Of a DNA stretch of 64,000 nucleotides, positions 32,622 to 58,867 are shown piece after piece. The DNA comes from Pseudomonadota bacterium. Lineage in GTDB: Bacteria > Pseudomonadota > Gammaproteobacteria > QQUJ01. Under the pieces are notes generated by a model that worked only from the letters and a program-made list of their open reading frames with translations, did no database searches and was not told where the DNA came from. Numbering within the stretch: the first letter of the stretch is position 1; every line of letters begins with the position of its first letter. Location: contig QQUJ01000019.1 of assembly GCA_008501635.1 (NCBI GenBank), positions 62,001-126,000 of the forward strand, in the 5' to 3' direction. The translations under genes and the position numbers were made by a program.

Positions 32622-33799
32622 TCGGGGTAACGGTGCTGGGCGCAACGGGATCCATCGGGCGGAGCACGCTCGATGTCATGGCGCGCCATTCAGATCGTTT
32701 TTCAGTGTTCGCGCTGACGGCAAATACGTCGTGGCATAAGCTGCTTGAGTTATGCCGGATTCACAAACCAAGATACGCTGTGATCGCGGATAGCCGTTAC
32801 GGGAAAGAGTTTGAAGAGGGGTTGAAGGTGGCCGCGCTACCCACCCAGGCGTTGTGTGGCGCTGATGCCCTGATGGAAGTCGCCAGTGCTCCCGCTGCGG
32901 ATTACGTGATGGCGGCTATCGTCGGCTCGGTTGGGTTGCCACCCACCTTGGCCGCCGCACGCGCTGGAAAGAGGGTGATGTTGGCCAACAAAGAATCTCT
33001 GGTCATGGCCGGATCGCTGTTCATGGAAGCGGTAGAACAGGGGGGGAGTGTATTACTGCCGATCGACAGTGAGCACAATGCGTTGTTTCAGTGTTTACCG
33101 GCTACTTACAAAGCCGGCGATCGGCCGGCTGGTGTGACAAAGTTAGTACTGACCGCTTCTGGCGGACCGTTTCAACAAACCTCGTTAGAGACACTGGACA
33201 AGGTCACCCCAGCTCAGGCCATTGCGCACCCTAACTGGGAAATGGGGCGGAAAATCTCTGTCGATTCGGCAACCATGATGAACAAAGGATTGGAGGTCAT
33301 CGAGGCGAGCTGGTTGTTTTCAATGGCCTGGCAACAGATCGAGGTGGTTATTCACCCGCAGAGTGTCATTCACTCAATGGTGCACTATGAAGACGGCTCC
33401 GTTCTGGCTCAGCTTGGCAATCCCGATATGCGCACTCCTATCGCACATGCGCTGGGTTGGCCGGAGCGGATTGCGTCAGGAGTGAGCACGCTCGATTTAC
33501 TGCAAATTGGAAAATTCACATTTGAAAAACCGGATCCACGCCGATTTCCATGTCTGGTGTATGCCTACGAAGCATTAGCCGCCGGTGGCCCCTACCCTGC
33601 GTTACTCAACGCGGCCAATGAAATCGCCGTGGAGGCTTTTTTACAGGGGCAGTTGCCGTTTACCGATATTCCCAAGGTTGTTGCAAGTGTGCTGGCAGCG
33701 AAAGTAGATGCTGATATTCGCTCATTGGACGGTATCTTAGAAACGGATCGACGCGGCAGGGAACTCGCTCGTCGGTGTCTTGTCCAGTTGTTGGGATAG
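32618..33799 (+). CDS. dxr: 1-deoxy-D-xylulose 5-phosphate reductoisomerase
   Basis: First committed enzyme of the MEP isoprenoid pathway, converting DXP to MEP with NADPH. The 393 residues have the NADPH-binding [22 protein letters not shown] and the metal-binding [10 protein letters not shown]. The ATG overlaps the cdsA stop as ATGA and has GGAAGG upstream. IspD and IspF of the same pathway are encoded at 53.1-54.3 kb. Confidence 0.97.
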
Positions 33800-52780: not shown

Positions 52781-53113
52781 GTGTGGATAAAAGTCCTGGT
52801 CACCATCCTCGCGGTACTGCTATTGGTGCTGCAGTACCGCTTGTGGGTGGGCGATGGCAGCCTGGCAGAAGTGTGGCAGCTGCGCCGCGAGATTGCCGTT
52901 CAGGAGGCCGAAAACCTCAGGCTGCTGGAACGCAATCGGGTTCTCGAGGCGGAGGTGCAGGATCTGAAAAAAGGCGTCAAGGCAATCGAGGAACGCGCGC
53001 GCAGCGAGCTGGGTATGATCCGCAAGAACGAAACCTTCTACCAGATCGTCGAACCTAAAGTACCTCCGTCGGGTACGGCGCAGCAGTCGTCCGAAAAGCC
53101 AACCGGCCAATGA
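52781..53113 (+). CDS. ftsB: Cell division protein FtsB
   Basis: Small bitopic divisome protein that works with FtsL and FtsQ. The 110 residues have an N-terminal membrane helix (about 4-21), a coiled coil (about 32-72, LRREIAVQEAENLRLLERN) and a GMIRKNETFYQIV segment typical of the family's periplasmic end. The GTG start has only a weak site (AGGCG). It overlaps ispD by 4 bp. Confidence 0.92.
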   Translation: MWIKVLVTILAVLLLVLQYRLWVGDGSLAEVWQLRREIAVQEAENLRLLERNRVLEAEVQDLKKGVKAIEERARSELGMIRKNETFYQIVEPKVPPSGTAQQSSEKPTGQ

Positions 53114-53820
53114 CGAAGTTCCCTTCCGTATGGGCGATCGTGCCGGCCGCAGGGGCGGGACGCCGTATGGAGGCGGACCTCCCTAAACAGTATCTGCAGC
53201 TGAACGGGCAAACACTGCTGCAACATACTTTATCGCGCGTGCTTGATTACCCCGGGCTCAGTGGAGTCGTAGTGGTCGTGGCCCCGGGAGACCAGTGGGT
53301 GAATGACGTCGCGGATGCATTCAAGGAATCGCGACTCGAAGTGGTCACCGGTGGTGTTGAACGGTGTCATTCTGTGCTCAACGGTCTTCACGCCCTGGCT
53401 GCACGCGCGGCGGAGCATGATTGGATCATGGTTCACGATGCAGCCCGGCCCTGCGTGAGCCATAGCGATCTCGACCGGCTCTTCGCCGCAATCCGGGATG
53501 AGCCGGCCGGAGGCCTGCTGGGCATGCCGGTACGCGACACCATGAAACGCGCTGGCGCCGATTCTCATGTCATGGAAACGGTTGATCGCGACCGGCTGTG
53601 GCACGCGCTTACGCCACAGGTATTCCGATTTCAGATGCTGCTGGAGGCGCTCGAAGGCGCGATTCAGACGGGTGTCAGCGTGACCGACGAGGCGGCTGCC
53701 ATGGAGCACGCCGGCCACCGGCCGTTGATGGTTGAAGGGCGCGCCGATAACATCAAGGTGACACGGCCCGAGGACCTGGACTTGGCGGCCTTCTATCTTC
53801 GACAGCAGGAGGGGGAATGA
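53110..53820 (+). CDS. ispD: 2-C-methyl-D-erythritol 4-phosphate cytidylyltransferase
   Basis: MEP-pathway enzyme that attaches CMP to MEP. The 236 residues have the nucleotide-binding [19 protein letters not shown] and VHDAARPC. Both ends overlap neighbours as ATGA (ftsB and ispF), so the three genes are translationally coupled. Confidence 0.97.
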
Positions 53821-54296
53821 AGCTGCGTATCGGTCATGGTTACGACGCGCATCGATTCGGGACCGGTGATCGGGTGGTCCTGGGGGGGGTTGCCATTCCC
53901 CACGACCAGGCGTTGATCGCCCACTCGGACGGCGATGTACTGATCCACGCAGTTTGTGACGCGCTGCTTGGGGCGGCGGCCCTTGGTGATATCGGTCGCC
54001 ATTTTCCGGACAGTGATCCTGCCTATCGGGGGATCGATAGCCGGACACTGTTGATTCGGGTCGTGCAGCTGGTGGCCGGGCAGGGCTATGGCATCGTGAA
54101 CCTGGATGCCACTGTGATAGCCCAGGCCCCCCGTTTGGCCCCCCACATAGTACGCATGTGCGGCAATTTGGCGCAGGATCTTGGTGTCGATCCCAGCGCG
54201 GTCAACATCAAGGCAACGACGACCGAAGGAATGGGTTTCGCCGGTCGGGGCGAGGGCATAGCAGCCCACGCGGTGGTGCTCTTGAGTTCGATCTAG
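53817..54296 (+). CDS. ispF: 2-C-methyl-D-erythritol 2,4-cyclodiphosphate synthase
   Basis: Trimeric zinc enzyme that cyclises CDP-ME 2-phosphate. The 159 residues have the metal site [20 protein letters not shown] and the C-terminal [16 protein letters not shown]. It is fused to neither IspD nor IspE and overlaps ispD by 4 bp. Confidence 0.97.
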
Positions 54297-54298
54297 CG

Positions 54299-55351
54299 GT
54301 GCCCCAGGCGACGCTCACAACGCGCTCACTCCCCTGCGCGTTTGAAGGTCCACCGGTTGCCGGTAAGTTGCGCCAGCAGCCAGAGGATTTCCAGGTCGAG
54401 GAGTTGCTCTCCTTCGAGCCCAGCGGGTCAGGCGAACATGCCCTGATAAAGGTGCGCAAACGGGGCGAGAACACGCTGTGGGTGACCCGCCAGCTGGCGC
54501 GCGTGGCGGGGGTGCCATCCCGCGATGTGGGGTACGCGGGACTGAAGGATCGACACGCAGTGACCACGCAATGGTTCACTGTCGGCCTGGCCGGGAAGCT
54601 CGAGCCCGATTGGGGCGCCTGCGTCTCGGACTCCCTGGAGATCCTCGAGGTCGTTCGCCACAATCGCAAGTTGCGCCCCGGCGCGGTGGTCGAGAATCGT
54701 TTTTCGATTCACATCCGTGAACTGAAGGGTAGCCGCGAAGCGCTCGGCGAGCGTCTGGATTGCGTAGCCGCCGCTGGTGTCCCCAACTACTTTGGTGAAC
54801 AGCGTTTTGGCAGGGATGGCGACAACGTCAATCAGGCCCTGGCGCTCTTTGCGGACGAGATTCGCGTACGCGATCGCAAACTGCGCGGCATCTATCTCTC
54901 GGCGGCGCGCTCGTGGCTCTTCAATGCGGTGCTTGCGGAGCGGGTTACGACCAAATGCTGGAATAGAGCCCTGCCGGGCGATGTCATGGCGCTCGACGGG
55001 AGACGTGCTGTGTTTCTTGCCGAGCGTCTGGATGACACCCTGCTCCGGCGGGTTGAGGAGCATGATATTCATCCCACCGGTCCGCTGTGGGGTCAGGGCG
55101 AGCCAATGACGGTCGGCGCACCGGCTGACCTTGAGAAACGGGTTGCCAGCGAGCACGAGACGCTGGCCGACGGCCTGATCCGGGCAGGGATGAAACAGGA
55201 GCGCCGCGCCCTGCGTCTCCGCGTTCGAAACCTGAAATGGGCACTCGGTACGCACGGAATCGAACTGTCATTCGGCCTCCAGGCCGGCAGTTTCGCGACA
55301 GCGGTGCTCCGGGAACTCACCGACTACCGGAGTGCGCCGCACCTCGATTGA
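54299..55351 (+). CDS. truD: tRNA pseudouridine(13) synthase TruD
   Basis: Isomerises U13 of glutamate tRNA. The 350 residues match E. coli TruD (349). The catalytic Asp is in GYAGLKDRHAVTTQWF, and NYFGEQRFGRDGDN is the other family signature. The GTG at 54299, two bases after the ispF stop, gives this length; an earlier frame inside ispF is not supported. In E. coli surE follows directly; here two genes intervene. Confidence 0.94.
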   Translation: MPQATLTTRSLPCAFEGPPVAGKLRQQPEDFQVEELLSFEPSGSGEHALIKVRKRGENTLWVTRQLARVAGVPSRDVGYAGLKDRHAVTTQWFTVGLAGKLEPDWGACVSDSLEILEVVRHNRKLRPGAVVENRFSIHIRELKGSREALGERLDCVAAAGVPNYFGEQRFGRDGDNVNQALALFADEIRVRDRKLRGIYLSAARSWLFNAVLAERVTTKCWNRALPGDVMALDGRRAVFLAERLDDTLLRRVEEHDIHPTGPLWGQGEPMTVGAPADLEKRVASEHETLADGLIRAGMKQERRALRLRVRNLKWALGTHGIELSFGLQAGSFATAVLRELTDYRSAPHLD

Positions 55352-55535: not shown

Positions 55536-56708
55536 ATGCCGGACAGGCTCCACATCACTTATCAGTTGACCCCTGTGGCAGGGCAGAGCATCGAGGGATT
55601 GTGTCGCGGCATCGCTTTGGAACAGACGGTGGAGATGGCCGAGGATCTGGTGCGCAGCGACGAGATACGCGAACAGATCATCGGCGAGACCCTCGAGCTG
55701 GAGCCACTGCCCGACCTATCCGGCAGCTACCGCGCGGTGATCGCCTATCGACCGGAGACCACGGCCTATGCGTTGCCGCAGCTGTTGAATCTGCTCTACG
55801 GCAATATCTCGATCAAGAACAACATCCGCATCACCGCTATCGAAATGCCCGGCTCACTGCTCGCACATTGGCCCGGACCCAATTACGGCATTGAAGGGAT
55901 ACGGCGACTGACCGGCGTCAGGGATCGCGCCTTGGCGATGACGGCGCTAAAACCCATGGGCATGCCGGCGGCCGACCTCGCTCTCATGGCGGGCGCTTTC
56001 GCGCAGGGCGAAGGCGATATCGTCAAGGACGATCATGGGCTTGCCGACCATCCGTTCTGCGGCTTTGCTGAACGCGTCGAGCGTTGCCAGGAAGCGGTCG
56101 CCCGTGCCAATCAGAGCACCGGCCACACCACGCTCTATTTTCCCAACATCAGCGCCCCGCTCGAGACCTTGGAGGAGCATCTGCAGCTTGCCGTCGAGCT
56201 GGGAGTAAAGGGTGTATTGGTAGCGCCCTTTCTACTCGGATTGGATACCGTGCGGTATCTGGCTTCGCGTTACGACCTGGTTTTTGCCGGCCACCCGGCG
56301 TTTTCGGGTACACACTTCCACGACCGCCGTCATGGCATGACCCCGGGGGTCCTGCTGGGAACACTGTTTCGCCTGATTGGGTGCGATATCTCGATTTACC
56401 CCAACTTCGGCGGCCGTTTCGCGTTCACTCCGGAAGAGTGCCACGGCATCAACGCCGCACTGCAGCAACCGCTGGGCGAACTCAGGCCAGCATTTCCTGC
56501 ACCTGCCGGCGGCATGACGCTGGACCGTATTCCCGAGATGGCGGCAGCGTACGGTAGCGATGCGGTCTATTTGATTGGATCGGCACTGCTGCGTGAAGAC
56601 ATCGACCTCGTCGTGGCGACTCGACGGTTCATGGCACGTATCCACGAAAGTTTTGCGCCCGTTACGGGGGTGAGGCCATGTCGAACGGGATCTGGCGGTG
56701 GGACCTGA
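55536..56708 (+). CDS. RuBisCO-like protein (form IV type)
   Basis: TIM-barrel protein of 390 residues related to the RuBisCO large subunit. ALKPMG (137-142) corresponds to the TxKPKLG catalytic segment. DIVKDDHG (161-168) corresponds to the carbamylated-lysine loop, with Lys164 and Asp166 kept but His167 in place of the metal-binding Glu. GHPAFSGT (252-259) corresponds to the active-site His294 region. The loop-6 lysine and the N-terminal active-site residues of true RuBisCO are missing, so carbon fixation is not expected. The KDDHGLADxPF signature resembles RuBisCO-like proteins linked to D-apionate catabolism, but no such genes are nearby. The start at 55536 fits the fold start. Likely an enolase, isomerase or decarboxylase; substrate unknown. 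Confidence 0.85.
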   Translation: MPDRLHITYQLTPVAGQSIEGLCRGIALEQTVEMAEDLVRSDEIREQIIGETLELEPLPDLSGSYRAVIAYRPETTAYALPQLLNLLYGNISIKNNIRITAIEMPGSLLAHWPGPNYGIEGIRRLTGVRDRALAMTALKPMGMPAADLALMAGAFAQGEGDIVKDDHGLADHPFCGFAERVERCQEAVARANQSTGHTTLYFPNISAPLETLEEHLQLAVELGVKGVLVAPFLLGLDTVRYLASRYDLVFAGHPAFSGTHFHDRRHGMTPGVLLGTLFRLIGCDISIYPNFGGRFAFTPEECHGINAALQQPLGELRPAFPAPAGGMTLDRIPEMAAAYGSDAVYLIGSALLREDIDLVVATRRFMARIHESFAPVTGVRPCRTGSGGGT

Positions 56709-56740: not shown

Positions 56741-57286
56741 TCAGCGCCGTTTGCGCAACAGGATATAGACCGCCCCCGTCCCGCCGTCATGGGGCGGGGC
56801 AGAGCAAAAAGCCAGTACCTCGCCGTGCTTCAGGAGGCGGCGCACAACCATCCCCCGCAGCACTGGCTCCCGGCCTGGCGACCGATTGCCCTTTCCGTGA
56901 ACCACCCGCACGCAGCGTCGGCCTAACTGCTGGTTTTGATTGAGAAAGTGTGCCAATTCGGACGACGCCTGCTGTTTGGACATGCCGTGCAGATCAAGGT
57001 GTGCCTCGATACTGAACTGACCGCGGCGCAGACGGCGCAGTGTCATGCGGTCGATTCCGGTGCAGGCGTAGACGCTCTCCTCACCCGTGCGATGTTCGAC
57101 CAGATCCAGAGGTGCGCGGCGCAGATCTTCCACCACCGCCGCCTCATCGAGCAGTGTCTGGCGCGGCTCCGCGGTCGGTGGAGGGGGACGCAGCATGACC
57201 TTGTTGTGCCGCAACGGCCGCGCATCACGCAGCTTACTGCGAAACAGTTCGCGTTCGTCGTCGTCGATGTCGTAGCGCTTGGTCAT
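56741..57286 (-). CDS. Smr-domain protein (endonuclease-like)
   Basis: Protein of 181 residues with a charged N-terminal region and a C-terminal Smr domain (about 90-180) with LDLHGM and VVHGKGNRS. Stand-alone Smr proteins of this kind (E. coli SmrA/SmrB relatives) act on nucleic acids, and SmrB cleaves mRNA at collided ribosomes; which applies here is not clear. It is the only minus-strand gene between 27.6 and 63.1 kb, convergent with the RuBisCO-like gene and divergent from surE. Confidence 0.88.
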   Translation of the reverse strand: MTKRYDIDDDERELFRSKLRDARPLRHNKVMLRPPPPTAEPRQTLLDEAAVVEDLRRAPLDLVEHRTGEESVYACTGIDRMTLRRLRRGQFSIEAHLDLHGMSKQQASSELAHFLNQNQQLGRRCVRVVHGKGNRSPGREPVLRGMVVRRLLKHGEVLAFCSAPPHDGGTGAVYILLRKRR

Positions 57287-57449: not shown

Positions 57450-58205
57450 ATGAAGATTCTTTTAAGTAACGACGATGGTTATCAGGCCCCGGGCCTGATC
57501 TGTTTGGCCCGCATGTTGAATGAGGTGGCCGAACTGACGGTGGTGGCGCCGGAGCGTGACTGCAGCGGGTCCAGTAACTCGCTGACGCTGGTGCTGCCAC
57601 TTCGTGCCCAGTCTATGGAAAACGGCTTTGTTCGCGTCGATGGCACTCCGACCGATTGTGTCCATCTGGCCATCACCGGCCTGCTCGAGGAGGAACCCGA
57701 CATGGTGATCTCGGGAATCAATGCCGGCGCGAATCTGGGTGACGATATCCTCTATTCGGGGACCGTGGCTGCCGCCATGGAGGGGCGATTTCTGGGTCTG
57801 CCAGCCATCGCCGTTTCGATGACAGAGCACGAACCCAGTCACTTTGAGACCGCCGGAAAGGTCGTGCTCGATTTGCTGGAGCGCCTGGTCAGAGATCCGC
57901 TGCCACCTGATACGATCCTGAACGTGAATGTTCCCGATTTACCCTGGAGTGAGCTCAAGGGTTATCAGGCTACCCGCCTTGGCTACCGGCACAAAGCGGA
58001 ACCGGTGATCAAAGATCGAGATCCACGCGGGCGGACCATCTACTGGGTCGGGCCCGCCGGCCTCGAACAAGATGCGGGCCCCGGGACCGATTTCTACGCG
58101 ATACGCAACGGATATGTCTCTGTTACTCCATTGCAGATTGATCTGACTCGCTACGATACGCTTGAACCTCTGGCAGGGTGGCTGGGCAACGCCCTCCATC
58201 CATGA
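57450..58205 (+). CDS. surE: 5'/3'-nucleotidase SurE
   Basis: Survival protein that removes phosphate from nucleoside monophosphates. The 251 residues start with the metal site [15 protein letters not shown], and show [25 protein letters not shown]. The 4-bp overlap with pcm is conserved in gammaproteobacteria. A TATAGT box at 57406-57411 may belong to a promoter, but no good -35 box was found. Confidence 0.97.
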
Positions 58206-58867
58206 AGTACGATGTAACCCATCGTGGCATCGGTATGACGTCGCAGCGCACCCGTGAGCGACTCATCCAACGGCTGCGCGACGCCGGGGTCAAGAACTCG
58301 CTGGTACTCGAGATCATTCGCAATACTCCCCGCCATATCTTTGTCGACGAGGCGTTAGCCAGTCGCGCATACGAAGATACAGCGTTACCCATCGGCAACG
58401 GGCAGACGCTGTCGCAGCCCTACGTGGTTGCTCGTATGACCGAAGCGCTGCTCGAACATGGCACACCGGAGAGGGTGCTGGAGATCGGTGCCGGTTCCGG
58501 CTATCAAACGGCGATATTGGCACAACTGGTGAAGCACGTTTTTGCGGTGGAACGCCTCGGCGCTCTCGCTGGTAAAGCCCGGGAACGATTGCGGGACCTG
58601 GGTCTCTACAATATTCAGTTGCGCCATGCCGATGGCTTTTTGGGTTGGCCACAGCACGCCCCCTATGATGCAATTCTGGTGGCGGCGGCGCCGGACGAGA
58701 TCCCTGGTGCGTTGCTCGCGCAGTTGGCTTTGGGCGGACGCCTCGTCATCCCCGTCGGTTGCGGGGCGGATCAGAACCTGATACGAGTAACGCGCACGGC
58801 AGATGGCTATGAACGGGAGACGCTTGGAGAGGTCAATTTCGTACCGCTGCTCGGCGGGCGCAGTTGA
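58202..58867 (+). CDS. pcm: Protein-L-isoaspartate O-methyltransferase
   Basis: Repairs isoaspartyl residues in aged proteins with S-adenosylmethionine. The 221 residues have the motif [14 protein letters not shown] and [14 protein letters not shown]. The ATG at 58202 overlaps the surE stop (ATGA); an ATG at 58235 ([10 protein letters not shown]) is also a common family start. The next gene starts on the last base of its stop. Confidence 0.94.

Follow-up and report, generated by a model that had tools for sequence, protein, structure and literature searches.

The closest described counterpart of the gene analyzed here is RLP1 of R. palustris, a RuBisCO-like protein (RLP) of the DeepYkr clade that converts 5-methylthioribulose-1-phosphate (MTRu-1P) to 1-methylthioxylulose-5-phosphate (MTXu-5P) with a kcat of 1.3 per s, and for which there is also in vivo evidence (PMC5893883). 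Its partner is a cupin, which in the characterized cases acts on the methylthio sugar (PMC5893883), and Rru_A2000 of R. rubrum is the MTXu-5P methylsulfurylase of the MTA-isoprenoid shunt (PMC4958253). The window (the whole stretch of 64,000 nucleotides that was analyzed) encodes an RLP that we predict, with a probability of roughly 0.85, to be an MTRu-1P 1,3-isomerase of sulfur salvage feeding DXP. The window gene thereby joins an enzyme type that is already known, and the surprise lies in its relatives rather than in the gene itself.

The RLP gene (55536-56708, + strand) is an intact open reading frame with an ATG start and a product of 390 residues, in which RuBisCO_large is the sole Pfam domain (71 bits, E 1.4e-19). 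The order of the locus is ispD-ispF-truD-RLP-smr(-)-surE-pcm-DedA-nlpD-rpoS. Upstream are two called open reading frames (53110-53820 and 53817-54296, both +) which, from recognition of their sequences, we take to be the MEP isoprenoid genes ispD and ispF, with a homologous block in locus L036; truD (54296-55351, +), identified by a profile match, lies 185 bp upstream of the RLP gene on the same strand. Downstream, the gene for an Smr-domain protein (smr, 56741-57286, - strand) is convergent with the RLP gene, and surE and pcm (57450-58867, +) form the downstream border of the insertion. The window also carries dxr, encoding DXP reductoisomerase, which takes DXP onward in the pathway (32627-33781, +; converted from G000:C19:94627-95781). 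The initial annotation had described the position between truD and smr/surE, as well as the lack of a sugar-catabolic gene nearby; open reading frames and Pfam matches bear out the former, and no sugar-acid genes were seen among the neighbors of the RLP gene. In E. coli, as it noted, truD, surE, and pcm are adjacent. A scan for promoters and terminators around the RLP gene gave nothing above chance. No cupin gene lies directly downstream of it, smr following after ~30 bp, and an N-terminal cupin remnant between the two was considered and found unconvincing. Elsewhere, the genome holds two further superfamily members, a RuBisCO on contig C17 (L041) and a second RLP on contig C10 (L040, 9581-10936), the latter of a different form IV group.

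Homologs were searched for in 94 relatives, 369 gammaproteobacteria, 398 Pseudomonadota, and 385 alphaproteobacteria. The subfamily profile search showed a sharp gap, with about 35 genomes at E <1e-115 and the next best match at 1e-63, and the window RLP is 36-46% identical to about 35 relatives over its full length. A maximum-likelihood tree against the form IV subgroups, an analysis that the initial annotation had proposed, places it in the DeepYkr clade together with the R. palustris structure 3qfw (support 100/99); this clade is sister to MtnW and far from the OiaX-like proteins, the RLP on contig C10, and RuBisCO. The structure 3qfw, to which the window RLP is 38% identical, is also the best fold match of its structure model (pLDDT 93.8; TM 0.86/0.95), and 3qfw is probably R. 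palustris RLP1 (RPA2169), judging by its place in the tree and by the assignment of 2qyg to RLP2.

Aligned to the RuBisCO of its own genome, the window RLP keeps K175, K201, D203, and H294, whereas the positions of K177, E204, R295, and K334 hold Met, His, Pro, and Arg, respectively. The equivalent of the general base K175, Lys139 (55950-55952, +), is invariant in the clade. KDDHG, which the initial annotation had read at the carbamyl-lysine loop, was confirmed at residues 164-168 (56025-56039, +), with the K201 and D203 equivalents kept and His in place of E204. The loop-6 Lys that had been reported missing is indeed not there, but its position (K334) is filled by Arg294 (56415-56417, +) rather than simply absent. 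The earlier conclusion that the protein is not a carboxylase of RuBP stands, K177, E204, and the loop-6 K334 all being replaced. These features are real, but they belong to a clade other than the apionate type: KDDHG and the loop-6 Arg are signatures common to the DeepYkr clade and not particular to the window protein, as the E204 position is His in every clade member compared (Gln in one subgroup), the K334 position is likewise Arg in every clade member compared, and all clade-invariant residues are present in the window RLP. In the subgroup with Gln (L038, L103, L110, L111, and L113), most of whose members are fused to the cupin, the motif reads KDDQN and not KDDHG. In a separate case, the RLP of L115 (2765-3829) apparently lacks the segment holding the H294 equivalent, through either a deletion or an assembly error.

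With the RLP, a cupin, mtnA, mtnP, and dxs/dxr all found, the genome encodes all parts of the shunt. It has one shunt cupin, unlinked (G000:C6:60956-61384, E 4.2e-56) and 57% identical to R. rubrum Rru_A2000; mtnA is on the contig of the window, 28 kb past the window end (455 bits), and mtnP is on contig C25 (279.7 bits), both over cut-off. More widely, mtnA is present in all 17 of 17 RLP genomes vs. 205 of 352 others of the class (Fisher p 1.4e-4, kinship ignored). In the predicted route, MTA from polyamine synthesis would be split by MtnP to MTR-1P, which MtnA would isomerize to MTRu-1P, and the RLP would shift the carbonyl to yield MTXu-5P, by means of a metal site of carbamylated Lys164/Asp166 and with Lys139 as base. 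The unlinked cupin would strip methanethiol (for methionine) from MTXu-5P, leaving DXP, which would enter the MEP pathway via Dxr and IspD/IspF, whose genes likewise lie in the window. We infer the substrate, reaction, and flux of the window RLP, and likewise only infer a functional tie to its location beside ispD/ispF. An ordinary dxs is encoded in addition to dxr, so the shunt is not needed in this genome for DXP, and there may be another MTA route besides it.

In 25 of the loci examined, a cupin of 125-155 residues is the immediate neighbor of the RLP or forms one protein with it (fusions in L036, L038, L103, L111, and L113), and the RLP-adjacent cupin of the relatives matches PDB 3jzv, named Rru_A2000 (E 9.4e-44). 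Such adjacency is absent from the window genome, and RLP and cupin are also unlinked in G331, indicating that linkage is not required. A genome from another family, G060, has the same block as the window (tilS-pyrG-kdsA-eno-ftsB-ispD-ispF-truD...smr-surE-pcm-DedA-nlpD-rpoS), with smr in the same place. Between its truD and smr lies an RLP fused to the cupin, preceded on the truD side by what, as read from the sequence, are an apparent response regulator and sensor kinase. Conservation of the location, which the initial annotation had suggested checking, thus extends to G060, but this was the only other genome found to share it, so the position is not one of general housekeeping. A sister relationship of the window and G060 RLPs is neither shown nor rejected by the tree (AU p 0.20), and common ancestry of the location is possible, not proven. 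Of the two alternatives to an apionate substrate that had been offered, sulfur salvage gains support from the DeepYkr kin paired with the MTXu-5P cupin and from the cupin, mtnA, and mtnP in the genome. As an aside, a phosphoribulokinase-like kinase is encoded upstream of the RLP-cupin in L037 (8245-9285; 280 bits vs. a cut-off of 236) and L107 (12120-13151), and the genome of L037, G071, gave no match to RuBisCO at 1e-3.

A role as an OiaX-type enzyme of apionate or other acid-sugar breakdown, to which the initial annotation had likened the signature of the protein, is virtually out of the question. The window RLP is a member of the RuBisCO superfamily with weak OiaX similarity (E 2.4e-20), but it scores 72.7 bits against an NCBIfam cut-off of 700, falls in a clade distant from OiaX rather than clustering with it, lacks the E204, R295, and K334 kept by OiaX-like proteins, and has no sugar-acid genes in view nearby; a true OiaX, L092, scores 780 bits and has KDDEK, R295, and K334. 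On score, clade, and residues we therefore rejected this function. By NCBIfam the window RLP is far below every curated cut-off, and the best score, 185.7 bits, is to a model of MtnW, the 2,3-diketo-5-methylthiopentyl-1-phosphate enolase of the ordinary methionine salvage pathway. That score and the sister position of the MtnW clade are what speak for an MtnW function, which is nonetheless highly improbable: the score is under both MtnW cut-offs (409 and 513.6), the window RLP is outside the MtnW clade (100/99), and MtnW proteins retain E204 and carry Ser at the Arg294 position. Scores and tree together led us to reject MtnW membership. (Among the MtnW-type RLPs, that of L044 is apparently fused to a class II aldolase/MtnB-like domain, as read from its translation.)

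Two other readings were weighed. The same isomerization could have as its main substrate 5-deoxyribulose-1-phosphate from 5'-deoxyadenosine salvage, as MtnK/MtnA-type routes are described as promiscuous for 5-deoxypentoses in the DHAP shunt (PMC10986504); we regard this as unlikely, given that the cupin partner acts on a methylthio sugar in the characterized cases (PMC5893883) and that the window holds no indication of radical-SAM waste. The gene could also be a relic, or its function could have drifted after loss of a linked cupin, since the cupin is no longer adjacent and the gap from the RLP to smr is only ~30 bp. However, the intact reading frame, the retention of every clade-invariant residue, and the presence of an intact cupin at another site of the genome make this quite improbable, and the MTRu-1P isomerase remains our preferred reading.

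Two genomes with this RLP, G043 (locus L038; one contig, 99% complete) and G071 (locus L037; 100% complete), have the cupin and dxr and no dxs, the only matches to dxs in the profile search looking like ordinary transketolase; G184, of the genus of G043, has dxs. In G043 and G071 the shunt may be the source of DXP. As this hypothesis was already raised for five species that have both shunt genes and no Dxs (PMC10663253), the two genomes add cases and not a new idea. They do make the question of Dxs-less bacteria directly testable, as the shunt could be their only DXP source.

The clade also includes members linked to transketolase, so that belonging to the clade is not enough to settle the step after the RLP. 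The shunt cupin is absent from seven of 21 RLP genomes, and all seven have the C-terminal half of a split transketolase (E <1e-170), which was found in none of the 14 genomes with the cupin (best match 2.7e-52, ordinary DXS/transketolase). Cupin and split transketolase therefore never occur together in the 21 genomes, a 14:7 partition that by counting has a chance of 1 in 116,280 but is not an independent test, because the tree needs only one partner change: the transketolase-linked RLPs form a single clade (100/99), indicating one switch of partner and not seven. The methylthioribose link of this branch is direct, through the order mtnK-mtnA. In L114 (8935-14428), mtnK, mtnA, the N- and C-terminal transketolase halves, and the RLP abut, and in L197 (4991-9119) MtnA and the N-terminal half are fused in one 656-residue protein, followed by the C-terminal half and the RLP. 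Named references for these operons were drawn from plasmids, as the window RLP query against genome contigs gave one MAG fragment. Plasmids of Rhizobium, Pararhizobium, Ensifer, Mariluticola, and strain NT-25 carry genes for a sugar-ABC transporter, mtnK, mtnA, both transketolase halves, and the RLP in the same order; in Rhizobium sp. BG6 the order mtnK-mtnA-transketolase-RLP was read by profile (the record is unannotated), and Ponticoccus has mtnA with transketolase and RLP (plasmid loci L215-L217, L219, L221, and L222, by profile or annotation). A plasmid of Shinella zoogloeoides (L220) has an RLP of the same clade that is N-terminally shorter and stands alone, with no transketolase, cupin, or mtn genes.

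We consider it fairly probable that the RLP family feeds two pathways, a presumably ancestral one in which the cupin leads to DXP and another, of the derived clade, in which the split transketolase takes over from the cupin and splits the product of the RLP. From transketolase chemistry we propose that cleavage would give, for example, glyceraldehyde-3-phosphate together with a methylthio unit of two carbons that could then release methanethiol. The window RLP belongs to the cupin side, and a profile search of its genome found no protein comparable to the transketolase C-terminal half. Our literature search, with subscription journals mostly outside its reach, found no description of the transketolase-linked branch, and this version of the pathway is apparently undescribed; if the proposal is true, it is a route for methylthioribose not yet described, on rhizobial plasmids.

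For the window gene itself, the result is a well-supported predicted function in an unusual and partly conserved location. The RLP is almost certainly no carbon fixer and is predicted to recycle a waste sugar that contains sulfur, yielding a precursor of isoprenoids, so that a RuBisCO homolog in a central housekeeping block has given rise to a concrete prediction, sulfur salvage supplying an isoprenoid precursor beside isoprenoid genes. The relatives present this type of RLP as a hub with two alternative partners, of which the split transketolase is seemingly undescribed.

Among known systems, the nearest solved relative of the transketolase C-terminal half accompanying the sister clade of the window RLP is the split transketolase of Carboxydothermus hydrogenoformans (6yaj), which is not known to have a link to RLPs or MTA. 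With OiaX (3-oxo-isoapionate-4-phosphate decarboxylase) the window RLP has only the RuBisCO superfamily in common, differing in its distant clade and in the R295 and K334 that OiaX keeps. MtnW (YkrW), the DK-MTP-1P enolase, is nearer, with a sister clade, a place in methionine salvage, and the same fold, and differs in lying outside the clade and in E204 and the loop-6 residue. The closest likeness is to R. palustris RLP1 (RPA2169) and R. rubrum Rru_A1998, with which the window RLP shares the clade (via 3qfw, which also carries KDDHG), the loop-6 Arg, and the fold, and whose genomes, like that of the window, contain the shunt cupin. Unlike R. palustris RLP1, the window RLP is unlinked from its cupin and is set in an ispD-ispF-truD-surE block.
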